Positions 6,631 through 42,117 of a DNA stretch of 61,714 nt are shown in pieces. The notes beneath the pieces were generated by a model. That model was not told where the DNA came from. It searched no databases and saw only the letters and a program-made list of their open reading frames with translations. The first letter of the stretch is position 1. Every line of letters begins with the position of its first letter. The stretch is from a virus. Both the position numbers and the translations under genes were made by a program. The stretch is taken from IMG/VR virus record IMGVR_UViG_3300032213_001078, positions 1-61,714 of that record; one strand, 5' to 3'.

Positions 6631-7101
6631 ATGAAACGCATATCTGCAGAACAGTCTCGATTCTACGTGCCTTTGGATATTGAGAACGACAAGTACGCTT
6701 TACAAAAGGCCAAAGCATTTACCTGCACTCCGACCGAGGACGGATGGGAGGACGTGACTTACTTTGGCGAGGCCATACTCGATCCAACTGGTAGCGTTAG
6801 AAAGCCGCAGTGGGTCTACGTACTGGTCAATAAGAGTTTACCTGGCGTTTGTAAAATCGGCATGACCACAAAGTCTGTAGACGAGAGGGTACGAGAAATA
6901 AACTCTGCTACTGGCGTGATTACTCCTTGGTTCTCGGTCTACAAACACAAGTGCGTTAACGCTCGATCCATAGAAAAAACAGTGCACGAGAAACTAGAGC
7001 AGTTCGGTAAACGCGTAAACAGAAAGCGTGAAGGCTTCGAGTGTACTACCGAATTGGCAATCGCAACAATAAAAGAGGTCGCTGAGGCCTACGAAATTTA
7101 A
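6631..7101 (+). CDS. T5orf172-domain (GIY-YIG-like) protein (156 aa)
   Basis: Residues about 60-150 match T5orf172: WVYVLVNKSLPGVCKIGMTT (strand pair, VYVL and KIGMT in place of GIY/YIG), then VDERVREINSATGV and the His/Glu helix ARSIEKTVHEKLEQFGKRV with KREGFEC. The family belongs to the GIY-YIG nuclease superfamily and is frequent in phages, sometimes fused to DNA-binding domains. The N-terminal 55 residues are unassigned. It may be a nuclease acting on DNA; substrate unknown. Confidence 0.7.
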   Translation: MKRISAEQSRFYVPLDIENDKYALQKAKAFTCTPTEDGWEDVTYFGEAILDPTGSVRKPQWVYVLVNKSLPGVCKIGMTTKSVDERVREINSATGVITPWFSVYKHKCVNARSIEKTVHEKLEQFGKRVNRKREGFECTTELAIATIKEVAEAYEI

Positions 7102-8836: not shown

Positions 8837-8844
8837 TATATTTG
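8837..8844 (+). promoter_or_regulatory. Bacteroidota-type -7 promoter element
   Basis: TATATTTG is a perfect match to TAnnTTTG, 16 bases before the glycosylase ATG and after a terminator, where a new transcript is expected. The -33 element is unclear (TTTG at 8821 is too close). Confidence 0.5.
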
Positions 8845-8859
8845 ATTACAATAAAAGTT

Positions 8860-9636
8860 ATGAGATTACAAACATCACCCTACCTCACTAGACAGGAAGA
8901 GTACAGAGACGACCCATGGAAAATGTTAATGGTCTGTTTCATGCTAAATCAAACACATCATAGACAAGTAGACGAAGTTAGAGAACACTTCTTTAACAAA
9001 TGCGGTACAGCAGAACGTTTAATCGATTGTCCGGACGCAGAGATCATAGAGATAATCAAGCCTTTAGGTTTTTATAACAAAAGAGTAAAAGCTTGGAAAC
9101 AGTTCTCTTATGAGTGGTTGGAGTTAGTACAAGAGTATGGCAATCCTATCTATATTCCTACTCACAAACTAATTGGACTTAAAGGAGTTGGTAAGTACGC
9201 AATAGATTCGTGGAGAATATTTCAGTGTAACGAATACGACGACGTAGATCCTGATGATCATGTACTAAACTTCTATGTTGAGTGGGCAAGAGCAGAAAAA
9301 GAGAGAATACTTCGAGAGCAGAACGATGCAAAACCAATGACAGTTTACTACGCACACTACACTAATTCAAGAGAAGAGCAACCTAATTGGAATAGATTAC
9401 AAGATTATGTTTGCTGTGTTATGGCAAGAACTCAAGACGAAGCCATAGAAAAAACTAAACGTATTGCATTAAAAAGAGATGGTGCAGTACACATTAAAAT
9501 TGCAGGTATCGGATTCGGTAGACAGGAGTGGGTAGATGAAGAGAAGTGGTTAGAGACAGACCCAGAATATTATCACATACACACCGAAGCTATGTGGAAG
9601 AGAATGGAAACAAGAAGAATACTAGAAAATAAATAA
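8860..9636 (+). CDS. MBD4-like helix-hairpin-helix DNA glycosylase (258 aa)
   Basis: Residues about 17-150 follow the HhH-GPD fold and align by eye with the MBD4 glycosylase domain: DPWKMLMVCFMLNQTHHRQV, then IIKPLGFYNKRVKAWKQFSY, the hairpin LIGLKGVGKYAIDSWRIF and the catalytic-Asp region DPDDHVLNFYVEW. As in MBD4, Tyr stands where EndoIII has its catalytic Lys, predicting a monofunctional glycosylase that flips out and removes a base such as T or U in mismatches, or a modified pyrimidine. About 100 C-terminal residues are extra and unassigned. I moved the start to ATG 8860 (AATAAAAGTT leader) from an upstream TTG. First gene of a tight four-gene operon. Confidence 0.75.
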   Translation: MRLQTSPYLTRQEEYRDDPWKMLMVCFMLNQTHHRQVDEVREHFFNKCGTAERLIDCPDAEIIEIIKPLGFYNKRVKAWKQFSYEWLELVQEYGNPIYIPTHKLIGLKGVGKYAIDSWRIFQCNEYDDVDPDDHVLNFYVEWARAEKERILREQNDAKPMTVYYAHYTNSREEQPNWNRLQDYVCCVMARTQDEAIEKTKRIALKRDGAVHIKIAGIGFGRQEWVDEEKWLETDPEYYHIHTEAMWKRMETRRILENK

Positions 9637-9637
9637 C

Positions 9638-10807
9638 ATGATTACAGCAAACCCAAAGTGGATTACAACCACACCGTACTACGAAGAATTTTTACGCTAT
9701 TATCAAATGGCTAAAACACAACAAGAAGAGTGTAACTTAGGAATTATAAAACATGCAGACAGTTCTGTACCTGACGAATTAATGAAACACGTTGAACTAT
9801 ACGACGTGGTTGAAAGAAAGTATGCGGGGTTTTCACAGATTGTTAATGACGTATTTTACGGTTTTTCCGAAGATCACCCTTACTGGAATAAAATGACTCA
9901 AGGTCACATGACAAAACAGAGAGAAACCGTTTCTAAAAATTGGACAGGTAAGCGCGACGTGTTCGGTTTAAGAGAGTGGATCTATTTGTTCTTGTTTCAC
10001 AGATTAACAGGATCTGCTATTAACTATTCGATGAAACCTTCAGGGTATCACAATACGCTTCTGTTCGAGATGCATCAAGCTGACAATATACCTCAGCTAA
10101 TCGACATCATAAAAGGAGCAACTAAACCATTTTACACATCGGTAGGTTATCAGTTCCCAAGTTTCCCTAAACCTCAAGGCAATTACAAACGTGGAGGAGA
10201 TTATTTCCTTTGCGAATTCGTTCCTCAGTTAGCAGAAGACGTAGCTACCTTCTTAGAAACTGGTGGAAAGAAAAACTTGAGAGAAGTAGGAGACTTTATG
10301 TTTAAGTGGAACGCAGACAGAGGACTAAGAGCTTTTAGATTTCAGTACGCTGCATTTATTGCTGACATAGCCGATTGGTTCCCTGAATTTGTTAATCGTG
10401 AAAGTCCATTCTATTACGGTACGAATGCAAAGGAGTGCGTTAGCTATTTAGCAAAGAAGTCTACGAAAATGCCAGAAGAAGTATTTTTGGATTCGGTTAT
10501 GATGAAGATATACGACGACACTGGTAGTTTTCCGTATAACGCTGAGGACGTTGCGTGTGACTCAATTAGATGGATTGAGAACTACGTAAAACCAGGAGCG
10601 GATTACGATCACTTAGATTTCGATCATGTATGGAACAGCAGCAGTATTAAAGACCATCCATACGGTCGTCAGAAAGCAATGTTAGATCTTGGTCTTGTCC
10701 CAAGCTTTAACGGTATTACAGAACACCCTTCCGATGACAAGGTACTTAAATCACTTCTTATAACAGAAGAGCAATACAAGGAAAGGGTACAAGAACATTA
10801 TAAATGA
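9638..10807 (+). CDS. Uncharacterised helical protein, possible DNA base-modification enzyme (389 aa)
   Basis: Starts one base after the glycosylase stop and overlaps the next gene by ATGA. It is rich in aromatic residues and His, with conserved-looking blocks: LREWIYLFLFHRLTGSAINY, PSGYHNTLLFEM, TSVGYQFPSFPKPQGNYK and a C-terminal HLDFDHVWNSSSIKDHPYGR. No nuclease or Rossmann motif is visible. Size, helical character and company recall the families predicted to add amino compounds to phage thymine (alpha-glutamyl/putrescinyl thymine pyrophosphorylases, amino-acid:DNA transferases), but I cannot confirm this from motifs. The operon context points to DNA; the biochemical role is open. Confidence 0.5.
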   Translation: MITANPKWITTTPYYEEFLRYYQMAKTQQEECNLGIIKHADSSVPDELMKHVELYDVVERKYAGFSQIVNDVFYGFSEDHPYWNKMTQGHMTKQRETVSKNWTGKRDVFGLREWIYLFLFHRLTGSAINYSMKPSGYHNTLLFEMHQADNIPQLIDIIKGATKPFYTSVGYQFPSFPKPQGNYKRGGDYFLCEFVPQLAEDVATFLETGGKKNLREVGDFMFKWNADRGLRAFRFQYAAFIADIADWFPEFVNRESPFYYGTNAKECVSYLAKKSTKMPEEVFLDSVMMKIYDDTGSFPYNAEDVACDSIRWIENYVKPGADYDHLDFDHVWNSSSIKDHPYGRQKAMLDLGLVPSFNGITEHPSDDKVLKSLLITEEQYKERVQEHYK

Positions 10808-11298
10808 AACAAACAACACAACGCGATTTTAAAATAAAAGCCACAGGCAATATCGCAGAGAAAATAGTGTACAACCACTTTTCAAAAAAACATCAAGTAG
10901 AAATTAACACAGACGAATTCGGTTATTGGGACATGAAAATTGACGGAGCTACTGTGCAAGTAAAAGCAATTACTCCGTTCGTTAAATTCGACTGTTGGGC
11001 AATTAATGCAGGTAAAACAACACAGAATCTAAACAACATATTCAAGTGCGATAAGTTCTACATCTTATCTTTGCCTTCTAAAGTACCACACGAATTCGAT
11101 GGTTATGTATTAGAGGTAGATCCTAAAGAGTGTATGACTAAAGTATTAGAAGGCTCTTTCAACCCAGAGAAAAAACTTTCTTTGATTATTCCTAGAAACC
11201 CAGCTTACGTGAAAAAGCTTTTTAAAATATCAAAAGAAGAAGAGAAGAATATTTTAGAACACGGTACATCAACATTCAGAAAGAAAAATATAAAATAA
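10804..11298 (+). CDS. PD-(D/E)XK-like nuclease fold protein (164 aa)
   Basis: The segment GYWDMKIDGATVQVKAITPF (about residues 39-58) has the core of PD-(D/E)XK nucleases: an Asp on one strand, then Q-V-K on the next, where Gln replaces Glu as in Cas4-, Vsr- or resolvase-like members; an N-terminal helix GNIAEKIVYNHFSKKH would supply the first motif. Later strands FYILSLPSK and FDGYVLEVD fit the fold. It overlaps both neighbours (ATGA, TAATG), implying equimolar production. It may nick or cut DNA after the glycosylase acts, or cut unmodified DNA. Confidence 0.6.
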   Translation: MKQTTQRDFKIKATGNIAEKIVYNHFSKKHQVEINTDEFGYWDMKIDGATVQVKAITPFVKFDCWAINAGKTTQNLNNIFKCDKFYILSLPSKVPHEFDGYVLEVDPKECMTKVLEGSFNPEKKLSLIIPRNPAYVKKLFKISKEEEKNILEHGTSTFRKKNIK

Positions 11299-12302
11299 TG
11301 AGTGACATTTTATTTCCAAACACTTGCGAAGTAGAATTCAAAGGCAAGAAACCAAAAGACTCTTGGATGCGAGATTGGCCATTAGAGCAACGCATTGAAA
11401 AGTTCTTTGAGTTCTGCCAAAAATACGACACAAGACAAGACGCTTTATTAAAGGACGAGTATCAGATCTTCTCTCATCGCTTACATTGGCACGAACATCC
11501 TTATTGCTATTACATGAGAGATAATGTTACTGATAACGAACTAAGAATGTTTTACACTCTAGTGTTTAGTTTTAGTAACGAGCATTGGGGAACTTTTATG
11601 AAACTTGCAAAAGAAGGCGAAGAAGCAACCAAAGAACACTTCGTTAATAATCGTCATGCTAGAAATGATCTATTTCAGATCTACTACCCAAAAGGTACAG
11701 ACGTTAAGAGTTGGTTATTACACGGACCTAAATTTGCAGGCAGAGATTTAGCATATCTTTTACAAGACGTTGAAGATGGTAAACGCGGACCTTACACAAT
11801 GATGGAGTTCGCTAAGAAGTTAGAGTCTTACTTTAAAGAGCATCAAAACTTTAGAAGTCCTTTGTATCCATGTAAGAACACTGCAAGATACATCGCAATG
11901 AGTTATCCACATTTGGTAGATCCTGAGTCTATTCTATTCGGTGGAACTGGACACTTCGATGGATTGCACCAGATATTCGGTGGTCAGAATCTAAACGGTA
12001 AAGTTAAGTATACTATTAACGAAGCTGGAGCATTCATTCCTGAGAACAAACAGGCTGAGCAATGGTTATATCAGATGGATCTATTAGTGAATCACCCTTC
12101 TAATCCCATGACTTCCCAGAAGTATCTGAACATTGAAGACAAGACGTGTTTCTTTTGGAAGCACATCGCAATCTCTCATGGTGAAAAGAAACCGACCAAG
12201 AATATACCTTACACTTGGATTTTCCCAGACAATTTCAGTTTGGCAAAAGAAGGTCAAGAGGAGTTTTTAGAAGGAATACAGCACAGAAGTCTAATGTATT
12301 AG
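11298..12302 (+). CDS. Possible thymine-modifying enzyme of the aGPT-PPlase/ADDT type (334 aa)
   Basis: A Trp/His/Phe-rich protein with distinctive blocks: PLEQRIEKFFEFCQKYDTRQ, FRSPLYPCKNTARYIAM (about 191-207), FGGTGHFDGLHQIFGGQNLN (about 214-233), NIEDKTCFFWKHIAI (about 275-289) and a final PYTWIFPDNFSL. From memory this resembles proteins annotated as alpha-glutamyl/putrescinyl thymine pyrophosphorylase or amino-acid:DNA transferase, which act on 5-hydroxymethyl-dU in phage DNA. Without a profile search this is a hypothesis only. Last gene of the glycosylase operon, followed by a terminator shared with the convergent late operon. Confidence 0.45.
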   Translation: MSDILFPNTCEVEFKGKKPKDSWMRDWPLEQRIEKFFEFCQKYDTRQDALLKDEYQIFSHRLHWHEHPYCYYMRDNVTDNELRMFYTLVFSFSNEHWGTFMKLAKEGEEATKEHFVNNRHARNDLFQIYYPKGTDVKSWLLHGPKFAGRDLAYLLQDVEDGKRGPYTMMEFAKKLESYFKEHQNFRSPLYPCKNTARYIAMSYPHLVDPESILFGGTGHFDGLHQIFGGQNLNGKVKYTINEAGAFIPENKQAEQWLYQMDLLVNHPSNPMTSQKYLNIEDKTCFFWKHIAISHGEKKPTKNIPYTWIFPDNFSLAKEGQEEFLEGIQHRSLMY

Positions 12303-12324
12303 GATCATATAGTTAGTAAATAAG

Positions 12325-12355
12325 AAAGGGAGCTCATTTGGGCTCCCTTTTATTT
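12325..12355. terminator. Bidirectional terminator between convergent operons
   Basis: A 9-bp stem AAAGGGAGC (12325-12333) with GCTCCCTTT (12342-12350), flanked by A and T runs, so it can serve both the plus-strand glycosylase operon and the minus-strand tail operon. Confidence 0.85.
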
Positions 12356-13185: not shown

Positions 13186-13195
13186 TAATAAATAT
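13186..13195 (-). promoter_or_regulatory. ATATTTATTA element
   Basis: On the minus strand the element ends four bases before the ATG of the 101-residue structural gene and touches the stop of the 1030-residue gene. Confidence 0.4.
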
Positions 13196-16100
13196 TAGTT
13201 CTCTCGTCTTTCCTCTGGTTTATAGTGAGCGATTCTATTATGGTGAATAGGACTTGCCAATAATACAGATGGTTTTAAATTTCCTTTTTTAGTTTCTTGG
13301 AACATGTAACTCATCCAAGTCTGTTCGTAAGGTCTTTCCCATGTAGTATCTAAGAACATCTTTTGATTGCCTTTCTTTCCGCATATAGTTGGCCAGTTAG
13401 CGTAGTAAACATCTCCAGTAATATAACCTAAACCATCTACGAATTCTATCTTATCGAATACAGTTCTTGGACAATTAGGATCTAATCCATGTTCAGGCAA
13501 TTTATCATAATCAGGATACAACTCTGTTCTTACTGCTTGAGGAATATTGTACCAAGACACTTGAATGTTATTGTCCATATAAACCTCAGTGAAAGATAAT
13601 TTTAAAAAGTCTACATCAGATCCTCCGTGCATTATCTTTAAAATCTTATCGTATAAATTATCTACGCACAATCTAAATCCGTTTCTACAAAATCCAATCT
13701 CTTCTGGTGGGTGAATACCCATATCATCTTCTAAGAATAAGTAATAATCACTATCTGATTCTTGGAAGTGTTTAGCTGCTCTGAATCTACCGCCGTTAAT
13801 TCCCGTATTCTCGTTTGTTATGATATGTTCGAATCCGTATTTCTCACAAAGTTTAGCATTCTCTATTCTTGCTTCTTCGTTAGTAGAGTTATCAATTAAA
13901 ATATTCCTAGTGTTAGTGATAAACTTAGGATGCTTTAACCAAGTTTGAATAGTATGTTCTACTTGATACGGAAAATTAAAGGTCAACATATAGATAGACA
14001 TTTTTAATTTGTCAACGTCTACTATTCTTTTTTGTAATTTAGCTCTACGTTCTGGTATGGCTTCTAATTCTGCGGTATCGTCTAATGCTTTGCTAACAAA
14101 CTCTTGAATGTGTCCGTTAATTCCTATTCTAGTCGCTCTACATAATTCAGGGTATTTTTCTGCTAATATAGAGAATAAGCTTTCTTCTGTACCCATAAGA
14201 CCTTCGTTCAAAGAGTCGTTTAATAAGTGCCAGTAATAAGAATTGACTTCTTTAATAGCTTCTTTGTTTCCACCGAATAATCCTCCTCTACAAATCCACT
14301 CAACAGTTCCACCAGCCATTCTGTTCAATGCATCCCATTCAAATCCGTGTACTTCTTTAACTCCTTGCCCATAATACGGATAAGGATATTGTACGAATAA
14401 GAAAGGATCTAGATATTTTTCTAACTTATCAAAGAATCTTTCTTGGATTAATAAGTTGTAGTTTATAGTGTTTGTAATTCCACCATCTACCCAAACAAAG
14501 TTATCCGATTGAAAAGAATCATATATAGAAGCATCGTGTAATAATGACATCTTTGACATTACGATTGGATTGTACCACTCTAAACTACCTTGTGGAGAAT
14601 CTTTTAACCAACCGGCTCTATTCAACCAATCTTCTGAAGTTCTAATCTCTTGTGCTTTGTCCCAAAAAGGACCAAACATATTTTTAATATCGTCTAATTC
14701 AAAGTATTTAATTGCAGTGTTAGATGTACTTCTTCTTTGCCAAACAAAATCTTCCAATTCTCTTGGTATAAAGATGAACATATTAACATCCACTTTCAAC
14801 AACTTATCGAAACACTCTAAGTAATGATCGAAAGATCTACCAGGTCTACCAATATTCCAAAGACCTGTTACTACAGTTAGTTTATTTTTTTCTTTTTTCC
14901 AATCGTAATTTTCAGGGATTTGTTTTGCAAATGCGATATCAATTGCTTCTACGTCTTGCGCGCCAATTTCGTAAACGTATCCTCCAATTTCTAATTTTTC
15001 TTTTAATGCAGATAACTCTTCTTCAAAAAGATTCATGTGTTCTATTCTAATACACTTAGGTCTGTACTTGGTTAAATCTAATTGTTTAAATATTTCCCAA
15101 TCCATTCCTTCTGTGTCTGTCAAGAACACATCTATTTTTTCTACATTATTATTTTTTAATATAGAATCTAAAGTAAGACACTTTACATTTATTTTTTCTG
15201 AGTAATTGTCTTTTACGAAAATATCTCTGTCATAATCTGATGCGAAACCGTTTCTTGGTGGAAATGCAGTTGCCATTCCTTTATATCCTAGCTGTAAATC
15301 GTATTCTTGTATTTTACTATCAGGAACATACATCATCTCTAAAGTTCCATCGTAATCTGCTACTGCTACATTTTCAAATATGTGATTAGATCGTGTGCTT
15401 AAATTACTTTTTAACTTCTCGTATACTTCAGGTATTGGTTCTACGAATACTCCTCCCCAACTATATCTATCAATATAGCCTCTCATGTCATCGAAAGTAA
15501 TTCCGTCCATTGCTCCCGCTTGAAATACAAATATATCTTTAAAGTTCTGACCTAAATAATGTAAAGCAATCGCTAAAGAATCGTTGTAAGGTTTTTCGTA
15601 TCCAGCTTTTTCTATTGCGCCAATAGGTTGCTCTTCGTACGCAGATACAGACTCTTCATTAAAGTCGGTAATAGAATTTAATTGGCCTTTTCTAGACCCT
15701 GTCTTTTTTATTACTATATAATTTCCATTCCAAAAATATTCATGATCTTTTATTAAAGGAACGATATCTTCTTTTCTGTCAGCAAATAAATTTGTGGCAT
15801 CTCCTCCGCCTCCTAAATCTTCTATAATATAAAAACCACCAAATTTAACTCTTCCGAATAAATTCTTTAATGTTTGCAATTGTGCCTCTGCTTTGTGCAA
15901 TCCGTCGTCTATAATAATATCGTAAGTGTTGGCTTGTAATGCTTGATCTAATTGTTTTTTATCTCTTGAATCGCAAATAAAAGTATTGATTCTGTCTTCT
16001 GAAATTCTACAATCCTCGGCTATATCTAATCCATGTACTTGGGCTTTTGGAAAATAATCTCTCCACACTCTTAAAGATCCGCCTTGTTTGTACTCAGGAT

Positions 16101-16287
16101 AATATAAATTTTGTATTTGTAGAAAGTGACCTTCTACGTTTACATCTAAACTACCCACTCCAACTTCTAATACAGAAGATACTTCTCCTCTAATTTCGTT
16201 AAATAGGAATTCGTACGCTTGAGAGTAACCACTTATTTTTTTATCGGTATAATATTTGTCGATATAAAAATCTAAATTTTTGAACAT
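13195..16287 (-). CDS. Four-domain sugar-modifying protein: methyltransferase, FkbM methyltransferase, HtrL/YibB-like, GT2 glycosyltransferase (1030 aa)
   Basis: Domain 1 (about 35-160) is a class I methyltransferase: SSVLEVGVGS, GGSLRVWRDYFPKAQVHGLD, YDIIIDDGLHKAE, GGFYIIEDLGG. Domain 2 (about 250-455) is FkbM-type: VFQAGAMDGITFDDM, GVFVEPIPEVYEKLK, IDVFLTDTEGMDWEIFKQLD. Domain 3 (about 468-720) resembles the HtrL/YibB family: VVTGLWNIGRPG, WYNPIVMSKMSLL, FVWVDGGI. Domain 4 (about 763 on) resembles GT2: IYMLTFNFPYQVEHTIQTWL, ILIDNS, NTGINGGRFRAAKHF, YLFLEDDMG. One protein could therefore transfer and O-methylate sugars. It sits downstream of the carbamoyltransferase and GT60 genes, so tail-fibre glycans are the likely substrate. 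Fusion of four such domains is unusual. Confidence 0.75.
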   Translation of the reverse strand: MFKNLDFYIDKYYTDKKISGYSQAYEFLFNEIRGEVSSVLEVGVGSLDVNVEGHFLQIQNLYYPEYKQGGSLRVWRDYFPKAQVHGLDIAEDCRISEDRINTFICDSRDKKQLDQALQANTYDIIIDDGLHKAEAQLQTLKNLFGRVKFGGFYIIEDLGGGGDATNLFADRKEDIVPLIKDHEYFWNGNYIVIKKTGSRKGQLNSITDFNEESVSAYEEQPIGAIEKAGYEKPYNDSLAIALHYLGQNFKDIFVFQAGAMDGITFDDMRGYIDRYSWGGVFVEPIPEVYEKLKSNLSTRSNHIFENVAVADYDGTLEMMYVPDSKIQEYDLQLGYKGMATAFPPRNGFASDYDRDIFVKDNYSEKINVKCLTLDSILKNNNVEKIDVFLTDTEGMDWEIFKQLDLTKYRPKCIRIEHMNLFEEELSALKEKLEIGGYVYEIGAQDVEAIDIAFAKQIPENYDWKKEKNKLTVVTGLWNIGRPGRSFDHYLECFDKLLKVDVNMFIFIPRELEDFVWQRRSTSNTAIKYFELDDIKNMFGPFWDKAQEIRTSEDWLNRAGWLKDSPQGSLEWYNPIVMSKMSLLHDASIYDSFQSDNFVWVDGGITNTINYNLLIQERFFDKLEKYLDPFLFVQYPYPYYGQGVKEVHGFEWDALNRMAGGTVEWICRGGLFGGNKEAIKEVNSYYWHLLNDSLNEGLMGTEESLFSILAEKYPELCRATRIGINGHIQEFVSKALDDTAELEAIPERRAKLQKRIVDVDKLKMSIYMLTFNFPYQVEHTIQTWLKHPKFITNTRNILIDNSTNEEARIENAKLCEKYGFEHIITNENTGINGGRFRAAKHFQESDSDYYLFLEDDMGIHPPEEIGFCRNGFRLCVDNLYDKILKIMHGGSDVDFLKLSFTEVYMDNNIQVSWYNIPQAVRTELYPDYDKLPEHGLDPNCPRTVFDKIEFVDGLGYITGDVYYANWPTICGKKGNQKMFLDTTWERPYEQTWMSYMFQETKKGNLKPSVLLASPIHHNRIAHYKPEERREN

Positions 16288-16297
16288 GTAACTTTTT

Positions 16298-17941
16298 TTA
16301 TTTCAGTATGTAATAATCTTCTAATAGCAAACCATCCATTTGTGTAGACTCTAAAATTTTAAAGGCTTCTTTAATCGTAGAAAGAATAGGACTTCCATCA
16401 ACATTAAAAGAGGTATTCAATAAAACTCCTACTCCTGTTTTTCTATCCATTTCGGTTAATAAATTGTACAACCATTCGTTGTCTTCTTTAGTAACTGTTT
16501 GAACTCTAGCTGTTCCATCTACGTGAGTGATAGCCGTTAATTTCTCTCTCCACTCTTCTTTAACTTTAGGGCAGAAACTCATCCACTTAGATTCTCCTTC
16601 CCATTCAAAATACTTAGATACATCTTCAAGTCTAACTACTGGTGCGAATGGTCTGTACCACTCTCTGTGTTTTACTTTTTCGTTAAGTATATCTTTCATA
16701 TCTGGAATAGACGGATTGCAAAGAATGCTTCTATTTCCTAAAGCACGAGGTCCATGTTCTGCTCTTCCTCTTGCAACACCGATGATTCTACCTTCGATAA
16801 GATCATCTGTCATTTTATCTATGTTGAAATAAGTAGTAGTAGTATTGTAAAAGTTTTGAATATAATGACCGAGAGAATCTATATCAAACAATTCAAGACC
16901 AGAATAAGTAGCATCAAAAGGTTCTTGTGGCTTTAATTGGTTTAACATTAAACCTAAAGCAATACCACAATCGTTAGGATTAGGTCCAACAAATACTTTT
17001 TTATTAAACTCTTTAACTAATCTAGTATTCAATAAGATATTCAATCCGCATCCTCCTGCCATACAGATAGGCAAATCAGGGTATTTTTCAAAATAAGGTT
17101 TTGCATACTCTAAAAAACATTCTTCGAATGCTCTCTGAGAAGTAGCAGCCACATCGTAAGCTGTCTGATCTAGCAATCTGTTTTTTATGTCGAAAGTAAC
17201 ACCTATGTTTTTTCCTAATTCATTAATCTTATTTTCGTAATCGTAGTAACCTGTTTCGTCCCATGGCCCAAAGTGATTTCCATTAGGTCCGCTCTTGTAA
17301 AAATGAATGAAATGAGGTACCCACTCTTCTATTACATTTCCGTAAGAAGCGAGTCCCATAATTTTACCAGAGTATACTAAGTTGCCTATGTTAAGAGGTT
17401 CTTTTTTAATATCGCCTAAATACTCTCCAAATACCATATAAGAAAATCCTAAGTCATAAAAAATATGCGGATTATTTTCATAAGGATTTAAAACTGATTC
17501 TAGCAATTTAGGAGATTCACCTCTTAAGCAATGGTAGATATTAAAAAATCCATCGTTACCTCCACCGTCGAAAGAGAAAGCTAAAGCTTCTTGATAAGGA
17601 GACTGATAGAAACATCCTGCAACATGAGCTTCGTGATGCTTGCCGTGAATGTAATTATCTGCTTTAATAAAAGTTTCTAGCTGGTATCTCTCTTCCATTA
17701 TTACATCTGTATTCATGCAATAACAGTTCTCAAACTTATCTATATTAAATTTTTTCTTTAAAAAGTTTGGAATATACTCTGATAAGAATAATAAATCTGC
17801 ATTCTTAGGACACATGTACTGTGCCATTCCGCTATTCTTATAATTTAAAAATCTTTCTACTTCTAATACGGTTAATATTTTTCCGTTCTCTTCTACTACA
17901 TACGCTGAGTTGTGTGAACCGTAGAATGCTATATTCGCCAT
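16298..17941 (-). CDS. NodU/CmcH-family carbamoyltransferase (547 aa)
   Basis: The N-terminal half is the ASKHA-like fold of O-carbamoyltransferases (IAFYGSHNSAYVVEENGKIL, HGKHHEAHVAGCFYQSPYQE, ALAFSFDGGGNDG), and the C-terminal half has GRAEHGPRALGNRSILCNPS, WYRPFAPVV and GVLLNTSFNVDGSPI, all hallmarks of NodU/CmcH/TobZ. These enzymes use carbamoyl phosphate and ATP to carbamoylate hydroxyls of sugars or antibiotics. Length is near the usual 550-600. Here it lies between a GT60 glycosyltransferase and the multi-domain methyl/glycosyltransferase, so it probably carbamoylates a sugar attached to tail proteins. Confidence 0.88.
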   Translation of the reverse strand: MANIAFYGSHNSAYVVEENGKILTVLEVERFLNYKNSGMAQYMCPKNADLLFLSEYIPNFLKKKFNIDKFENCYCMNTDVIMEERYQLETFIKADNYIHGKHHEAHVAGCFYQSPYQEALAFSFDGGGNDGFFNIYHCLRGESPKLLESVLNPYENNPHIFYDLGFSYMVFGEYLGDIKKEPLNIGNLVYSGKIMGLASYGNVIEEWVPHFIHFYKSGPNGNHFGPWDETGYYDYENKINELGKNIGVTFDIKNRLLDQTAYDVAATSQRAFEECFLEYAKPYFEKYPDLPICMAGGCGLNILLNTRLVKEFNKKVFVGPNPNDCGIALGLMLNQLKPQEPFDATYSGLELFDIDSLGHYIQNFYNTTTTYFNIDKMTDDLIEGRIIGVARGRAEHGPRALGNRSILCNPSIPDMKDILNEKVKHREWYRPFAPVVRLEDVSKYFEWEGESKWMSFCPKVKEEWREKLTAITHVDGTARVQTVTKEDNEWLYNLLTEMDRKTGVGVLLNTSFNVDGSPILSTIKEAFKILESTQMDGLLLEDYYILK

Positions 17942-17944
17942 TTA

Positions 17945-19222
17945 TTAATTATTTATTTGATATTCTATTCTTTCAACCCAACCTTCTTCTTCTGTGAATC
18001 CCCAAAATACTACTCTTGTCGGTTTTTCATCTGTTAAGAAAAACTCTTCGTAATGTATTTGTTGTCCTTTGTGCATAAAGTTTTCCAATTCTGGTCCAGT
18101 AATATACTTGTGATTTACTGCTTTACCAGTTGCATCGTCAAACGCTACTAAGATATGTTTGTAATTCTTTCTTGGAAAATCATGAGGATGTATAGTTACC
18201 AAATGATAGAAAGATCCCATGAAAGACTGCTCCCATAATTCGTCGTCTGCGATGTATGGATTAGGCGGATAGTTATTGTCTAATGTAAACTTCTGAACCG
18301 CTTTTCTTTTAAAGTGGAATCCAGCATACTTTTCAAAATCTCTTAAAGATCTCACTGTACCTAAATCGTATCCAGTCAAATCAATAGTTGGATCTTCTTC
18401 AGTTCTTAACAATACTCTAATTTTCTTTCTTGCGTATTCTTGTTTTTGGAACCAATCTACTCCTAACTTATAATCATCGTCCCACTTCAACATACCAGAT
18501 CTCTCTTCTCTCATAGTAGAATGCCAAACAACTAACTTGTGGGGATGGAATAAATCGTATCCATGAGTGTAAGACCTAACTGTTAAGTTTAATTCTTCTC
18601 CACTAAAATAAATATCGGTATCGTGTCTTATCTCTTTTGCCCATTCAGATCTAGCAAAACAGAAGTGACCTGATAAAAATCTACTCATAGGTGGTTCAGT
18701 CATATCTTGCCAACCGTGTAATAAACCTGGTCTGATGAAGATAGTTCCGTGAGGATAGAAGCAAGCGAAGGTTTGCTGCCATGGCTCCATAGTACGTCCT
18801 TCTGGATCGTTAAATGGTGTATATAAAGGTAAATAAGCCCCTAAGATTGGTTTGTAACCTTGAGCTTCTAAACCGCTATGCATTTCGATTAAAGTCTCGT
18901 CCCAATCTTTTGCAAATCTGTGATGAGAATCTAACTGTAGAATATAGTCTTGATTGGTTAAAAGTTTCTCGTTGATTTGAGCTCTTGCCCATGGTAGACC
19001 TTCGGCTTCGGTGTATAAAACGTCCATAATATGGAAACGTTTGTCGCCTCTAAATTCGTCTACGTTATCGAACTTATCTTCTGGGTTGTATTGTCTACAA
19101 ATACCGAAGTGAACTCTTTTTGGATACTTAGCTTGTGCTAAAGCATCTTTGATTGTTGGTACTAATTCCGGATCTCTATAAGATGGAAGATGCACCAAAA
19201 TTGTAGGTTGTTTCTTTGCCAT
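17945..19222 (-). CDS. GT60-type (Skp1/mucin GlcNAc-transferase-like) glycosyltransferase (425 aa)
   Basis: GT60 hallmarks in order: ILVHLPSYRDPELVPTIKDA, WARAQINEKLL, LQLDSHHRFAKDWDETLIEM (the DSH-x-RF active-site block), FLSGHFCFARSEW and SGEELNLTVRSYTHGYDLFH then VWHSTMREER. Known GT60 enzymes (Dictyostelium Gnt1, protozoan mucin polypeptide GlcNAc-transferases) transfer GlcNAc to hydroxyproline or Ser/Thr. About 120 C-terminal residues form an extra domain also present in the second copy at 20979 (both end with a GW-ER-IE-I pattern). It lies directly downstream of a mucin-like repeat protein, its likely acceptor. Confidence 0.85.
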   Translation of the reverse strand: MAKKQPTILVHLPSYRDPELVPTIKDALAQAKYPKRVHFGICRQYNPEDKFDNVDEFRGDKRFHIMDVLYTEAEGLPWARAQINEKLLTNQDYILQLDSHHRFAKDWDETLIEMHSGLEAQGYKPILGAYLPLYTPFNDPEGRTMEPWQQTFACFYPHGTIFIRPGLLHGWQDMTEPPMSRFLSGHFCFARSEWAKEIRHDTDIYFSGEELNLTVRSYTHGYDLFHPHKLVVWHSTMREERSGMLKWDDDYKLGVDWFQKQEYARKKIRVLLRTEEDPTIDLTGYDLGTVRSLRDFEKYAGFHFKRKAVQKFTLDNNYPPNPYIADDELWEQSFMGSFYHLVTIHPHDFPRKNYKHILVAFDDATGKAVNHKYITGPELENFMHKGQQIHYEEFFLTDEKPTRVVFWGFTEEEGWVERIEYQINN

Positions 19223-20978: not shown

Positions 20979-22238
20979 TTATTCGTAGCTAATCTTGTCC
21001 TCAATTCTTTCCATCCAGCCTTTGGATGCGCTATGAGGCCAAACTCTCCATGAAACTGGCTGCTTATCGCTTTCGTATTCTCTCCATATTTGAATAAAAT
21101 GATCGTCTTTGTTCATATTCATAAGACCTTTTAACTCTTCTCCAGAAATGTCTTGTCTATATAAGTCTTTTCCTTCTGAGTCTAGGAAAGCTACCGCAGC
21201 TGAATCGTAGTCTGTTTCTGTCAAAGATCCCTTATACACATTTATACAATACTTTATCTTACTAATTAGTCCTGTTTCGTAGTCTGAAATTATTGGAGGA
21301 AACTGATTGGCTATAGTCTCTTGGTGAATCTGTCTTGTTTTAAACTTAAGACCTGCATACTTTTCATAATCTTCTAAAGTTCTCTCAGTTCCAAATCCGA
21401 AACCTTCTAAAGATCTTCTCTTACAAGGAGGACATCCGCCTGGGTCCATTTCGAATAAGGCTCTAAATCTTGCGTAAGAGGCTTTGTCTAAATCATTAAA
21501 AGTTGAGTGATCGTCCCAATGTCTTTGCTTTCCGTTTCTAGTGTATTCGTGCCAAACGATAGGTCTGTGAGGTGAGAATAGATCGTATCCATGAGTGTAT
21601 GCTCTAGCAGATAAACTGGTCTCTTCTCCATGAAAATAAAACTTAGGATCGTAAGGTACTTCTTTTACAAATTTGCCTAAAGTAAAGATAAAGTGTCCTG
21701 ATAAGAATCTACTTTTGAATGGCTCAGTTCTGTTCTCCCAATTTGGTACATGAAATGGTTGTAAGAACACCGCGCCTTCAGGTAGAAATCTCATGATATT
21801 TAATCCCCACACCTCTTGCACTCTGCCTGCTGGATCGTTATCTGGAAAATACCCTGGAATGTACGCAGATAAAATTGGTTTTTTGTGACCTTTAACTTGT
21901 AAGTAACTAACGTAGTCCTTCAAAGTTCTATCCCAATTTTTTGTAAATCTATGATGAGAATCTAGTTGAAAGTAGTAGTCTTCTCCGTTGTAATAATCTT
22001 GAATTTTATTTCTTACCCAACAAACTCCTAAAGAATCCTTATGATCAATGTCCAATATGGTGAATCTGTCGTCTCTAACGAATTCATTTAGATTGTCCCA
22101 AGTGTCCTCTTCAGAGTGTTGCCAACCCACGCATATGTGCAAGTTTTCTGGTTCTTGACAGTTATTGATTAGATCACGTAAAGTTGGTAAAAGTTCGGGG
22201 TCCCTATAGGCCGCTATCGAAACGAAGATTTTTGACAT
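20979..22238 (-). CDS. Second GT60-type glycosyltransferase (419 aa)
   Basis: Same block order as the 425-residue paralogue: IFVSIAAYRDPELLPTLRDL, CVGWQHSEEDTWDN, CWVRNKIQDYY, FQLDSHHRFTKNWDRTLKDY, FLSGHFIFTLGKF, HGEETSLSARAYTHGYDLFS and PIVWHEYTRNG. The sequence is closer to classical GT60 enzymes (the VWHEYTR ending) than the other copy, so the two may have different acceptors or act in sequence. The C-terminal extension ends WRVWPHSASKGWMERIEDKI. It lies between mucin-like proteins 1 and 2. Confidence 0.87.
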   Translation of the reverse strand: MSKIFVSIAAYRDPELLPTLRDLINNCQEPENLHICVGWQHSEEDTWDNLNEFVRDDRFTILDIDHKDSLGVCWVRNKIQDYYNGEDYYFQLDSHHRFTKNWDRTLKDYVSYLQVKGHKKPILSAYIPGYFPDNDPAGRVQEVWGLNIMRFLPEGAVFLQPFHVPNWENRTEPFKSRFLSGHFIFTLGKFVKEVPYDPKFYFHGEETSLSARAYTHGYDLFSPHRPIVWHEYTRNGKQRHWDDHSTFNDLDKASYARFRALFEMDPGGCPPCKRRSLEGFGFGTERTLEDYEKYAGLKFKTRQIHQETIANQFPPIISDYETGLISKIKYCINVYKGSLTETDYDSAAVAFLDSEGKDLYRQDISGEELKGLMNMNKDDHFIQIWREYESDKQPVSWRVWPHSASKGWMERIEDKISYE

Positions 22239-35290: not shown

Positions 35291-38200
35291 TTATTGAATG
35301 TTTTGAGTAGTCTCAGATTTTCCTGGTCCTGAGTAGTAAGATCCTCCGCTACCAGCATAACTTACAGAACCTCCGCCTCCAGCTCCGCCTCCTGTTGCAG
35401 AAGTAGAAGTTTGAGCCGCTTGATTTGTGTTATTTATTGGTTGACCACCTTCTAATTGCTTTATCTCTGCTTCTAATGCTCTAATTTCTCTCTGATTATT
35501 TTCTATTTTAGGGTCTAAATCTTTCTTAGCCTTGTCAAAAGCTTTTGTGCTTATTGCTCTAGCTTGCTCTTTTTCCTTATTCCAATTAGATATCTGTTCT
35601 TTCAAGTCAGATATTTTATTCTTTCTTTCAGCTATAGCTTCGCTATTCTTTTGCTTATTAGCTAATTTGCCTGAATATCTTCCAGCTGGATCTGTCTGCT
35701 TTAAATTATTGGCAAGATCTGAAGATGCTTTAGCCATCATCTTTCTCATTCTCTTTCTTAATTTCTTACCACCTTTAATGCTATTAATAAATCCATTAAT
35801 ACCTAAACCTTCTGGTGGATCTTCGTCTTCGCTATCAGGATCATCACTGCCTGTATCAAATTCCATAAATTCTATATCGTCTATAGTAAGATCTTCGTCA
35901 GTTAAGAAGTTCATAGACTCTTCCATCACTGAAATATCATTAGCAGAAAAACCAGAAAATCCTAGATTAGGTTGATTTCCTCCTGATTCTGCTTTTTGAC
36001 CTTCTAAATTGGATTGCTTTCTTCTCGCATCTTCAGCTAAGAAAGAATCCAAACTCTTTCCATAATCGTCTCCTCCAATATTTGTTACCATAGAATCCAA
36101 TCCAGCTCCGTTTCCATCGAAGCTTGCATTAGAAATTGGAACATTTAAAGGAGTTCCATTGGCATTAGTACGATTAATAGCAGAAGATTGATTATTTGAA
36201 GCAATTCCTGCTAAACCTAAAGTTTGAGAAACACCTCCATTTTGATTAATATTTTGACCTTGCTTAGAAGCCGCTAAATCTCCAAGTCCTGTCATTAGTG
36301 GACCTGTAAGACCAGAAACTCCTGATCCTCCATTTGGATTAGTACCACCTAAGCCATTTATCATTACGTTAGCTTTTTGAGCGTATCCAAGAGCATTAGT
36401 ATTAACTAATCCTAAAGAAAGTAATTTCGCTTTTACTTCTGCGATAATAATTTTATCGTCAGAAGCATAAGTAGCGTCTGATTGTGTAGCAAGAATTCCA
36501 TTTTGATCTATAGCAATTCCGTAACGTCTTCTTAATTTTATTTCTGTGTCTACTGATTCTTCTGTTAATATTTCTATAGTGTAAGGTCCAAATTTATTAT
36601 TTTTGGCATTCTTTTTATCAAAGTAATTGTTTAAAAAATCTAATAGTCTAAGAGCTCTATCTCTTAAAAGATCTCTTACATCTTTAAATTCATTCATTAA
36701 AGCTGGATCTATATAAGTTCTATTTCTTCTTGCATTTAATTCACTAGCGCTAGGGGTTACGCCTATTACACCGAAACCATTTCCATTTGCGTTAGAGTCT
36801 AGAACTATACCAGAAGTATTGATAGCAGATTGTTCGTTTCCTCTGCCTCTATTATTATTAAGCCCGCTTGCATTTCCTCCACCAGTTCTACCTCCTGTCC
36901 CTCCGCCTGCTGCTCCTCCTGTTCCTGTACCTCCACTTCTATTGTTAGGATTAATATTTGTACCTCCTCCAGCTAATTGATCCAAACCGTATTGATCTAA
37001 TTCTGTTTGTAGTGTTGAAGGATCTCCATATAAACCACTAGGATCAGTATAACAAGATTCTATGTTAAAGATTAAAGCGGTAATTTTTTCTACTAAAGTA
37101 AATAGCTTAGTAACTAAACTTCTCAAAAATCCTATGATAGTTTGTAAAAGTTGATTTATTTGCTTTAATCTTTTTAAGAAAAACAAAAATCCTAGTTCTT
37201 TAATGGTCTGTTGTAAAGTTTCAGCAGCTACAGTAGTTACACCTACTGTGGTAAAAGCATTTGGAATAGGTACTCCTAAAAAGAACTTTCTTAAAATCCA
37301 AAATACCTTTACTAAAAGTAAGAATAAAGATATAATATTGCTAAAGAAAGAAATGATCCTAAGTATTTGGTTTGCAATTCTTATAATCACTCTACATATG
37401 TCTATAATAGTTTTTAAGAAAGGAATAATTTTTCTTGGATCTATTATTTTAGAAATCATTTTAATGAACTTAGAAATTCTACCATCTAAAAATCTATCGG
37501 CTAAGTTAATTGCTCCACTAACTGTAGTTAAATTTTGTATAGATATTGCTATAGTTCTAATATCATCTATTTTCCTTAAAGCTTTTTGTACTTCTTGATT
37601 TGGAAAATTTCTAACGTCTGAGTATTTGTTAAACACTCTATAAACGTCTTCCATAAAATTTGAGAACAACTGTAATTCAGGAAACGCAGCAACTAGTTCA
37701 GCATCTCTTAGTCCACCTTCGCCTAACAATTCTCTTGCCGCTTGAACTTGAGTGTTGCCTTGTAAAGAGTCTCTAAAAGATAAACCTGATGCTTCTTGTT
37801 CTATTTGTTGTTCTGGAGTAAGTACTTGTTCTGGAGGAATTCCTAAAACCTCTTCTAATATTGTTCTAATTTTTTTTATCAATCCTACTAAAGCGTTTTT
37901 CTTTTTAGAAGTAGTATTGTCTCCGTACAAAGAATAGAAGTCATCTATTAGCACTTGTACTTGATAAGCTTTTAATTGTATTTCGTATTTTTTTCTAGCT
38001 AAAGGATCAGATATAGTATTAGGATCTACATTAGGATCGAATGCTTTTCCTCCTGGTATTTGATTCAACGCATACTCTAGAATATTACACATATCAACTT
38101 CTAGTAATTTATCCATTACATAGAATATACCTTTATCCAAAGTCTCCTTAAAACCAGTCATTGGATTAACTGCATCGGATTCTTCTGCTGCAGCAATTTC

Positions 38201-39869: not shown

Positions 39870-40222
39870 TATGTGCTAGGTAATTGTTTTTTAGGAGCCA
39901 TTGAAGTAACTTCGCTCATTAATTGCTCGATATCTTTCTCTGACAAAAGGCCTCCATCTTCTACAGATTTGTCTTTTGCGTCAGCAGATTTTTGGAAAGC
40001 ACTAAGTATTTTCATTAGCACTTCGTCGTTCTTAAGACTAGAATCCAATAGACCTTTGATCATTGGCATAAGAACTATAGCATCACCAGGACCATCAATC
40101 ATATCAGCTAGACGTAGTATTTCAGACTTTATCGTAGAATCTTGGGACTTATGTTTGTTGTAAACCTCTTCCACCAATTGCGCCAAAGTCTTGCCAGGAA
40201 AGATTTCCTTTTCTAGTTCCAT
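39869..40222 (-). CDS. Hypothetical protein between sigma factor and baseplate genes (117 aa)
   Basis: A helical, charged protein (LAQLVEEVYNKHKSQDSTIK, AIVLMPMIKGLLDSSLKNDE). It starts with MELEKEIFPGKT and overlaps the hub gene by one base. An ATATTTATTT element lies upstream. It could be a baseplate assembly protein; no family recognised. Confidence 0.6.
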   Translation of the reverse strand: MELEKEIFPGKTLAQLVEEVYNKHKSQDSTIKSEILRLADMIDGPGDAIVLMPMIKGLLDSSLKNDEVLMKILSAFQKSADAKDKSVEDGGLLSEKDIEQLMSEVTSMAPKKQLPST

Positions 40223-40232
40223 AGGATTTTTT

Positions 40233-40242
40233 AAATAAATAT
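40233..40242 (-). promoter_or_regulatory. ATATTTATTT element
   Basis: On the minus strand it lies 10 bases before the ATG of the 117-residue gene and touches the end of the sigma-factor gene, a reasonable site for late transcription of the baseplate genes to begin. Confidence 0.4.
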
Positions 40243-41000
40243 TACTGGTCTACGTTTTCAATATGGTGATCCAGCACCTCCTTGTATATGGTCTTGAGCT
40301 TTTTAATAACCTTTGTAATGGTATTAGATTGGCAGTCAGTGATCTCTTTTATGTATATAAAGAGAGCCTTTTTATTGAATATGTCTATGTTGTCTCGCTT
40401 CTTAAACACTTCTAAGATAGCATCTGCAACCTTAATTTCACCTTCTTTGTCGAACAGTTCAACTAGATTATCGTCAACATATTTTATGAATTGATCTATT
40501 ACAGAAACTCTATTAATGTCAGAGGATTCTGGTTCTAAAATTAAAGTTTCATGAGTACTATTGGCGTTATCAATCTCTTCTACCTGTATCTTAGAAACCA
40601 TTTTTTTGTAGTTCTTTTGATTGTAGATAATCAAGTATCTTTTGGCAATGGTACCAAAATAAGAGTAGGCTTTACCTTTTGATTGATCGTAAAGGTGCAA
40701 TTTTTGTAAAAGAAAAGAGATAACTTCGTACTTAAGATCTTCAATATTATCTACTTCTGTGTAATAAAACTTAAAAGTGTGGATAATATTCTCGGCTAAT
40801 TTATAAAACGCGTAGTGAATCTCTTTGTTATAAATTTGATTTGCTACGGCTTGATTTGGAGCAGCGCGATATCTTAAGATTGCCTCTTCAGTTTCAGAAG
40901 TAAAGTAGACATTCTTGGTTTTTGGTTTTCTTTTTCTAGGAGTGCCTTTAATTGTAAGGCCCATGTCCTGTTCTGCTTCAACTATTAAGTCTTCTGCCAT
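40242..41000 (-). CDS. Late sigma factor, gp55-like (252 aa)
   Basis: The central segment TEVDNIEDLKYEVISFLLQK, then LHLYDQSKGKAYSYFGTIAK and RYLIIYNQKNY, is the reduced sigma region 2 typical of T4 gp55-type factors (the phrase KGKAYSYFGTIAKRYLI is highly characteristic). A basic N-terminus (TPRKRKPKTKN) precedes it and the C-terminus is helical. T4 gp55 directs host RNA polymerase to late promoters together with the sliding clamp. Here it probably recognises the AT-only elements noted before structural genes, but this is inference. Confidence 0.82.
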   Translation of the reverse strand: MAEDLIVEAEQDMGLTIKGTPRKRKPKTKNVYFTSETEEAILRYRAAPNQAVANQIYNKEIHYAFYKLAENIIHTFKFYYTEVDNIEDLKYEVISFLLQKLHLYDQSKGKAYSYFGTIAKRYLIIYNQKNYKKMVSKIQVEEIDNANSTHETLILEPESSDINRVSVIDQFIKYVDDNLVELFDKEGEIKVADAILEVFKKRDNIDIFNKKALFIYIKEITDCQSNTITKVIKKLKTIYKEVLDHHIENVDQ

Positions 41001-41003
41001 GGT

Positions 41004-41276
41004 TTATTTTCTCCCTGTAAATTGTTGAACACGTAATTGAATTGCTTTAATTGTTTCAAATAGAGATAACAACTCTGGATCTGATTGAACCCACATTGTC
41101 ATGTCTATTTTATTTACTAAGCCGTTAAACTCGTCTAATAAAGACATTGTATCGTTTACAAAGCCACTTTGATTAAGTACGATCTCTTCTAAACGTTTAT
41201 TTTTTCTATATAAATTGTATACTATAGCGCCAAAGATTGTGACGAACCATAATACTAGTGCAATTATTCCAGTCAT
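41004..41276 (-). CDS. Membrane-anchored coiled-coil protein (90 aa)
   Basis: The first 20 residues (MTGIIALVLWFVTIFGAIVY) form a transmembrane helix, followed by NLYRKNKRLEEIVLNQSGFV and a helical C-terminus. It sits between the HD protein and the sigma factor genes, with gaps of three and six bases. No known function; spanin- or superinfection-exclusion-like roles cannot be separated. Confidence 0.6.
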   Translation of the reverse strand: MTGIIALVLWFVTIFGAIVYNLYRKNKRLEEIVLNQSGFVNDTMSLLDEFNGLVNKIDMTMWVQSDPELLSLFETIKAIQLRVQQFTGRK

Positions 41277-41282
41277 TTTATT

Positions 41283-41915
41283 TTAAATTTGTGTTTCTAC
41301 TCTCGAAGCCATTAAATCGGCTTGATGAAGTATGTAAGGTAAATTAGATTTTAATTCAGAGTCAGAACTGTACGTAATATAATACGGCTTATTTGCTTCT
41401 TCGTACAATCCATCGTGTAATTTGATTGCCAAGAATTCATTTTCGCTAACAGAAATACCAGCTTCTTGTAAATAGAATAAACTTCTATCTGCAATTCTCA
41501 TGTGAGTGATCTTACTATTATATTTAAAGTGTGCTCCTTGTTTCTCTACATGCCAAGAAGAGTCGTTAGGAATATAGAAAGGCTCTTCGTTAGTGCCCAA
41601 TTTACCTAGGTCATGATTAATTGCAGAGAATACTAATTCTTCAATGGTATAATCTTTCTTCTGACCAAAGCGTTCCCATACTTTATCCATTACTAAAGCG
41701 GCTTCAACTACTCTATTAACGTGTTCAACGTAACCTCCTGGAAAACAGTTGTGATGTGCTAATTTAGTAGACGCAGGACTAATAGCTAAAGTAACTTCTC
41801 TACTTTTATAAAATTCCAGTAAAGAGTCTTTTCTATCAGACGTAATATACTTGTCAATGTATCCGTAAAACTTTTGTAAGTTCTCAAGGATTTGTTCTTC
41901 TGTCAGTTTTTTCAT
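41283..41915 (-). CDS. HD-domain phosphohydrolase (210 aa)
   Basis: HHNCFPGGYVEHVNRVVEAA (about residues 53-72) and FSAINHDLGKLG (about 95-106) give the H...HD metal-binding pattern, with IKLHDGLYEEANKPYY providing a later His-Asp. HD proteins of this type hydrolyse nucleotides, phosphorylated metabolites or cyclic nucleotides. The substrate is not evident. The leader AATAAAAGTT-ATG is the only full example on the minus strand. Roles in nucleotide metabolism or in countering nucleotide-signalling defences are both possible. Confidence 0.72.
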   Translation of the reverse strand: MKKLTEEQILENLQKFYGYIDKYITSDRKDSLLEFYKSREVTLAISPASTKLAHHNCFPGGYVEHVNRVVEAALVMDKVWERFGQKKDYTIEELVFSAINHDLGKLGTNEEPFYIPNDSSWHVEKQGAHFKYNSKITHMRIADRSLFYLQEAGISVSENEFLAIKLHDGLYEEANKPYYITYSSDSELKSNLPYILHQADLMASRVETQI

Positions 41916-41931
41916 AACTTTTATTTTTTAA

Positions 41932-42108
41932 TTAAGCTTCGTGCTCAGTGTTGATTAAGTGTTGGATCTCATTTATCTTTTCTTGCATCTTTTCTAAAGT
42001 CTCTTTTAACTCTTGTGGAGGACGCAATTGGGAAATTTGTGAATTTTGGTACATTATCATGTTTACCAACTCACTTAATTTTTTAGTAACTAGTTCTTTG
42101 TATCTCAT
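41932..42108 (-). CDS. Small coiled-coil protein (58 aa)
   Basis: On the minus strand an ATG at 42108 opens a frame (MRYKELVTKKLSELVNMIMY, then ELKETLEKMQEKINEIQHLI) that fills the gap between two genes, nine bases after its upstream neighbour. The heptad-like Leu/Ile/Met pattern predicts a coiled coil. No function assigned. Confidence 0.6.
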   Translation of the reverse strand: MRYKELVTKKLSELVNMIMYQNSQISQLRPPQELKETLEKMQEKINEIQHLINTEHEA

Positions 42109-42117
42109 ATTGTTAAT

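Follow-up and report, generated by a model that had tools for sequence, protein, structure and literature searches.

The 61.7 kb IMG/VR lake-phage record IMGVR_UViG_3300032213_001078, analysed here over its whole length and called the window below, is a fragment of a phage genome with terminase and portal genes. It carries four consecutive open reading frames (ORFs) on the plus strand, named here P1 to P4, which seem to belong to a DNA base modification pathway. P1 (8860-9636; 258 aa from an ATG start, the longest ORF beginning at a TTG at 8842) encodes an MBD4-type HhH-GPD DNA glycosylase. P3 (10804-11298; 164 aa) encodes a PD-(D/E)XK-type nuclease-like protein, while P2 (9638-10807; 389 aa) and P4 (11298-12302; 334 aa) encode two predicted all-helical proteins discussed below. 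P1 and P2 are separated by one base, P2 and P3 overlap at ATGA and P3 and P4 at TAATG. The set is closed on the same strand by an intrinsic terminator at 12324-12351 with a 12-bp stem and a T tail (-19.7 kcal/mol, folding z -4.8). All the junctions and the terminator on which an initial annotation of the sequence had based a four-gene operon were thus found.

The same annotation had given the operon its own -7 element, and only part of this claim stood. The putative element, TATATTTG, is present in the sequence upstream of P1 at 8837-8844 on the plus strand, but the motif TAnnTTTG was not enriched before genes, either in the window (2 of 56, against 3.1 at random) or in its closest long relative, the 174 kb record IMGVR_UViG_3300032320_001447 (G003). 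We therefore rejected the idea of a Bacteroidota -7 promoter. Shine-Dalgarno-like motifs were also unenriched, being rarer than chance in the window. G003 is largely colinear with window positions 2653-61714, at 70-93% identity over the colinear part and ~91% across the operon.

Profile-guided scans of IMG/VR returned 508 stretches related to P2 and 407 related to P4. In hundreds of metagenomic phage contigs the two genes usually lie side by side, and among the loci examined, many of which end nearby on their contigs, P4 shared the locus of 92 of 100 distinct P2 proteins. Furthermore, 144 residues of P2 are near-invariant in 97 sequences. This strong conservation and adjacency indicate that P2 and P4 are genuine genes. 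Searches of Pfam and PHROGs with the window proteins, with 25-27 relatives of each and with the most divergent relatives gave chance matches only, and tblastn searches of 50,697 isolated phages with P2, with P4 and with a divergent P2 found no match. PDB sequence profiles and a Foldseek search of the PDB returned nothing for either protein except a weak hint of AGOG, an 8-oxoguanine glycosylase.

To characterize the two proteins we compared their AlphaFold2 models, all-helical in both cases (mean pLDDT 82 for P2 and 90 for P4), with viral structures using Foldseek. P4 matched an AADT-named homologue (53% identity), a P2 homologue (12% identity, probability 1.00) and clade 1 of aGPT-PPlase (probability 0.99). 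P2 matched an AADT-named homologue (58% identity), a P4 homologue (probability 1.00) and the 5-hydroxymethyldeoxyuridine (5-hmdU) DNA kinase of SP10 (probability 1.00), as well as the HMUDK_hel proteins of phiRSL1 and phiW-14 (probabilities 0.91 and 0.54). Both matched viral proteins named as AADT-domain proteins with a probability of 1.00; because these are close homologues of P2 and P4, we take the AADT label as a lead only.

The comparison of sequence families pointed in the same direction. A Glu-x3-Cys motif is at least 95% invariant in four families, namely P2 (Glu303 and Cys307, 10544-10558, plus strand), P4 (Glu280 and Cys284, 12135-12149, plus strand), HMUDK (residues 271/275 in M6) and AADT (residues 243/247 in M6). 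At the site of the invariant GPGxxxG of the 5-hmdU DNA kinase, P4 has a GTGxxxG of equal spacing (residues 216-222, 11943-11963, plus strand) and P2 has GTN. Aligned with each other by hhalign, P2 and P4 gave a P of 0.0036 against 0.056 for the best control (23 control families per query), and a distant P2 paralogue aligned with P4 at a P of 5e-4. Judging from these sequence comparisons, P2 and P4 are probably paralogues. The shared predicted fold and the invariant motif support the structural guess, and on the models both are best called divergent members of the 5-hmdU DNA kinase / amino acid:DNA transferase / aGPT-PPlase superfamily. The initial annotation had been reminded by both proteins of enzymes that hypermodify thymine; a relation to base-modifying families was indeed found in predicted folds and in the motif, but not with the Pfam models, and sequence profiles stayed near background.

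Next, we surveyed the gene neighbourhoods of P2 and P4 in relatives. Both genes form overlapping operons with a gene for a T4 gp42-like hydroxymethylase, in the order gp42-P2-P4 (L132, 386-1084/1081-2118/2118-3077) or, with a cd-type dCMP deaminase gene, gp42-cd-P2-P4 (for example L111). A single 9 kb contig, 3300046777_001081 (L180/L406), joins P1 to this set in the run PALP-dUTPase-cd-gp42-P1-P2-P4. Altogether, 14 distinct P2 proteins are encoded within ~8 kb of a gp42 gene, and a P2-family protein lies within ~6 kb in 24 of 64 gp42 loci, these loci being partly redundant. In the large relative G001, a distant P2 paralogue (40160-41227; 24% identity) sits in the gp42 cluster, 2 bases upstream of a PALP gene.

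A PALP-like pyridoxal phosphate (PLP) enzyme is encoded beside dUTPase, dCMP deaminase and gp42 genes in G001 (41229-42110) and G002 (36168-37055), and at 549-1436 in G003. It has a C-terminal motif in common with the M6 PLP protein that adjoins AADT, and may tailor an added group. We set it aside as evidence, since its likeness to the M6 protein reaches an E of about 0.01-0.05 only.

The hydroxymethylase gives an indication of the base concerned, as Asp or Asn at the position of T4 gp42 D179 sets the preference for cytosine or uracil, respectively (PMC5175136; PMC8670742). We searched the large relatives with Thymidylat_synt and set aside true thymidylate synthases (TS) before counting residues. 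TS homologues were present in every record of at least 149 kb except G003, and those other than true TS were T4 gp42-like, with E values against T4 gp42 down to 2.5e-88, and all had Asp at the D179 position; each of these records, G003 apart, has such an Asp-type enzyme. Over all loci, Asp occupies this position in 60 of 60 distinct gp42-like proteins, while the dUMP-type enzymes of M6, Vi01 and phiW-14 and the true TS carry Asn in the same alignment. Thus, a survey for thymidylate hydroxymethylases, on which thymine as the modified base would have relied, turned up dCMP-type enzymes instead.

P1 fits this setting. Its glycosylase domain (residues ~5-148) matches Pfam PF00730 (HhH-GPD) at 30.8 bits against a cut-off of 26.2, and its best PDB profile match is MBD4 (E 7e-24), followed by endonuclease III (EndoIII; 3e-11) and MutY (2e-7). 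Tyr113 of the GVGKY motif (9196-9198) and the predicted catalytic Asp133 of the DDH motif (9256-9258), which delimit the plus-strand segment 9196-9258, are the same in all 35 aligned sequences and correspond to the Tyr and catalytic Asp of human MBD4. The earlier recognition of an MBD4-like glycosylase with Tyr replacing the Lys of EndoIII therefore held. From its sequence, P1 is MBD4-like in the glycosylase domain only: a Pfam scan detected no methyl-CpG-binding domain, and P1 has an extra C-terminal domain of ~100 aa, to which stand-alone matches exist in relatives. No homology of P1 to P2 or P4 was found.

Among isolated phages, P1 homologues were limited to Xanthomonas DoCa6, Stenotrophomonas AXL_1, Janthinobacterium Donnerlittchen and their close relatives. 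In all three records examined, the gene for this Bosavirus-type glycosylase, alike to P1 in its MBD4-type domain, adjoins genes for an Asp-type TS homologue and a dCMP deaminase. Together with the lake phages, this means that in two unrelated phage groups an MBD4-type glycosylase accompanies a cytosine-modifying TS homologue. As human MBD4 excises T, U and 5-hydroxymethyluracil (5hmU) opposite G, the simplest role for P1 would be the repair of deaminated modified cytosine, which suits the gene neighbourhoods better than the base exchange or the destruction of unmodified host DNA suggested in the initial annotation. In the Bradleyvirinae loci L429, L430 and L431, an MBD4-like glycosylase gene lies near genes for a hydrolase/pyrophosphohydrolase, an Asp-type TS homologue (annotated as a plain thymidylate synthase) and a dCMP deaminase; two of these loci also have a gene annotated as dihydrofolate reductase there.

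A DNA base modification system is still the best reading of the four genes, given the superfamily likeness of P2 and P4 and their linkage to a hydroxymethylase. Since P2 and P4 of the relatives stand beside genes that make hydroxymethylcytosine, we think it rather probable that the pathway of this large lake phage to which the operon belongs hypermodifies cytosine, and not thymine, and that the operon would decorate and maintain modified cytosine. In such a pathway, the T4 gp42-like enzyme and the dCMP deaminase, whose genes would lie in another part of the genome to judge by the linkage in relatives, would produce 5-hydroxymethyl-dCMP, to be incorporated into DNA as 5-hydroxymethyldeoxycytidine (5hmdC). 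P2 and P4, whose superfamily has characterised members that phosphorylate 5-hmdU in DNA and then add amino acids, would next act jointly on the 5hmdC of the DNA by activating its hydroxymethyl group and attaching a further group there. P1 would excise T or 5hmU from the mismatch with G that deamination of the modified cytosine leaves, and P3 might be an accessory nuclease, perhaps directed against unmodified DNA.

A narrower version of this proposal, which we offer tentatively as one possibility, is that in a large group of uncultured lake phages a kinase/transferase-type pair of the thymine-modifying superfamily has been re-targeted to 5-hydroxymethylcytosine (5hmC), with phospho- or amino-acid-type products, and is co-transcribed with an MBD4-type glycosylase for repair of 5hmU:G and T:G; this would amount to a writer-plus-repair module like vertebrate 5-methylcytosine and MBD4. 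The characterised 5-HMUDK phosphorylates 5hmU and not 5hmC (PMC6457204), and action of P2 and P4 on 5hmdC would thus be a new specificity. The superfamily has so far been tied to thymine, and P2 and P4 constitute two families outside Pfam and PHROGs linked to a dCMP hydroxymethylase. If the cytosine reading is true, the chemistry extends to cytosine, and new DNA bases as well as new tools for tagging 5hmC are predicted. The MBD4-type partner would in turn be a testable answer to deamination of modified cytosine to 5hmU or T, products beyond the reach of uracil-DNA glycosylase.

Several results weigh against the cytosine pathway or against the superfamily assignment behind it. Neither P2 nor P4 was recognised by the two Pfam models at E up to 10: PF18724 (ADDT / amino acid:DNA transferase) hit none of 22 records, with M6, Vi01 and phiW-14 matching as controls, and PF18723 (HMUDK_hel) hit nothing in the window or in six relatives, its controls also matching. 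The hhalign comparisons of P2 and P4 with HMUDK and AADT gave P values of 0.015 to 0.2, barely over background and too weak alone. In addition, the tightest gp42-P2-P4 operons are without P1 and P3, and the P2 paralogue near gp42 in G001 is without the Glu-x3-Cys motif. Finally, no hydroxymethylase was found in the window or in the 174 kb of G003. The G003 contig begins inside a dUTPase gene, which in its sister genomes G001 and G002 adjoins the dCMP deaminase and gp42 genes, and this would account for the missing gp42; we therefore dropped the idea that G003 has no hydroxymethylase. Contig L428, which shares 86% identity with the first 1.4 kb of G003, extends into cd and gp42. From the break point and this continuation, the lineage of the window very likely has gp42, although the gp42 piece of L428 is too short to reach residue 179.

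Three other explanations were weighed. In the first, P2 and P4 would hypermodify thymine as a pair made up of a 5-hmdU DNA kinase and an amino acid:DNA transferase, with 5-hmdU as substrate, like the enzymes of M6, ViI and phiW-14. All characterised members of the superfamily work on 5-hmdU (PMC6449724), the inactivity of 5-HMUDK on 5hmC agrees with this (PMC6457204), and the 5-hmdU kinase proteins of SP10 and phiW-14 are among the Foldseek matches. However, no large relative has a dUMP-type (Asn) hydroxymethylase, and the linked TS homologues are of the Asp type without exception where those of M6, Vi01 and phiW-14 have Asn, which makes this explanation unlikely in our view. The second takes P2 and P4 not as writers but as base readers or enzymes akin to glycosylases that join P1 in processing, editing or repairing modified bases, as their fold resembles that of HhH glycosylases. 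It is consistent with weak Foldseek matches, P4 with AGOG (probability 0.38) and P2 with a viral EndoIII (probability 0.47), and with an operon shared with a genuine glycosylase, but those scores are far under the HMUDK and AADT matches (probabilities up to 1.00), Glu-x3-Cys belongs to modification enzymes, and P2 and P4 adjoin gp42 without P1; we give it little credence. Equally improbable is a nucleotide-pool or host-takeover module in which P1 and P3 are directed at the DNA of the host or of rivals, P2 and P4 use free nucleotides and virion bases are not hypermodified: the dCMP deaminase and dUTPase linkage and the nuclease-like P3 would suit it, but known superfamily members work on DNA, the product of the linked hydroxymethylase marks phage DNA, and P1 and P3 are inconstant partners of P2 and P4.

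A cytosine pathway of this kind would combine traits of several described systems. With the thymidine systems of M6, ViI and phiW-14 (PF18723, PF18724) it has in common the predicted all-helical fold, the invariant Glu-x3-Cys, two superfamily members per genome and the hydroxymethylase and deaminase gene partners; it differs in that the Pfam models do not recognise P2 and P4, the hydroxymethylase is dCMP-type (Asp) rather than dUMP-type (Asn) and a glycosylase is in the operon. As in the 5hmdC system of T4 (gp42, cd and then glucosyltransferases), an Asp179 gp42-like enzyme and a dCMP deaminase are linked to P2 and P4 in relatives, but here the downstream enzymes would be P2 and P4 and not glucosyltransferases. 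T4 alpha- and beta-glucosyltransferase, gp56 dCTPase, gp1 kinase and denA/denB had no match in G001-G003. Known decorations of 5hmdC include glucosyl, arabinosyl (PMC6024577) and carbamoyl (PMC8670742). The 5hmdC carbamoyltransferase found by MetaGPA (PMC8670742), which also has D-type TS and dCMP deaminase partners, and the 5cxmC-glycine ligase CmoXY (PMC12783734) likewise further decorate a C5 handle on cytosine in phage DNA, but with enzyme families unrelated to P2 and P4. We found no account of the superfamily acting on cytosine in a literature search whose coverage of the key thymidine-system papers was incomplete.

As for P3, residues E19, D43, Q52 and K54 are invariant across 10 diverse members, in the E...D...QxK layout of PD-(D/E)XK nucleases, in keeping with the fold class given to it in the initial annotation; Pfam and the PDB gave no significant hit to any established nuclease family or structure. 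P3 is absent in some relatives and in others is swapped for distant versions (~37% identity) while the neighbouring genes keep 90-96%, which suggests strong selection on, or mobility of, the nuclease gene. P3 has homologues in the ExK proteins whose genes immediately precede gp42 in L111 and L112 (hhalign probability 83%, E 9e-6).

Outside the operon, the window encodes on its minus strand a TobZ/NodU-type carbamoyltransferase (16298-17941; PF16861, E 5e-64; PF02543, E 8e-27), whose family also contains the 5hmC carbamoyltransferase already published. It is flanked by genes for two GlcNAc-type glycosyltransferases (PF11397, E 7e-52 and 3e-69; 17945-19222 and 20979-22238, minus strand) and by one for a 1030 aa fusion of FkbM methyltransferase and HtrL/YibB domains (13195-16287, minus strand), a setting in which glycan modification is possible. 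As it sits among glycosyltransferases, we did not retain it as an alternative 5hmC writer. A plus-strand gene at 6631-7101, shortly before the operon region, encodes a protein with a GIY-YIG-type domain (T5orf172/MUG113).

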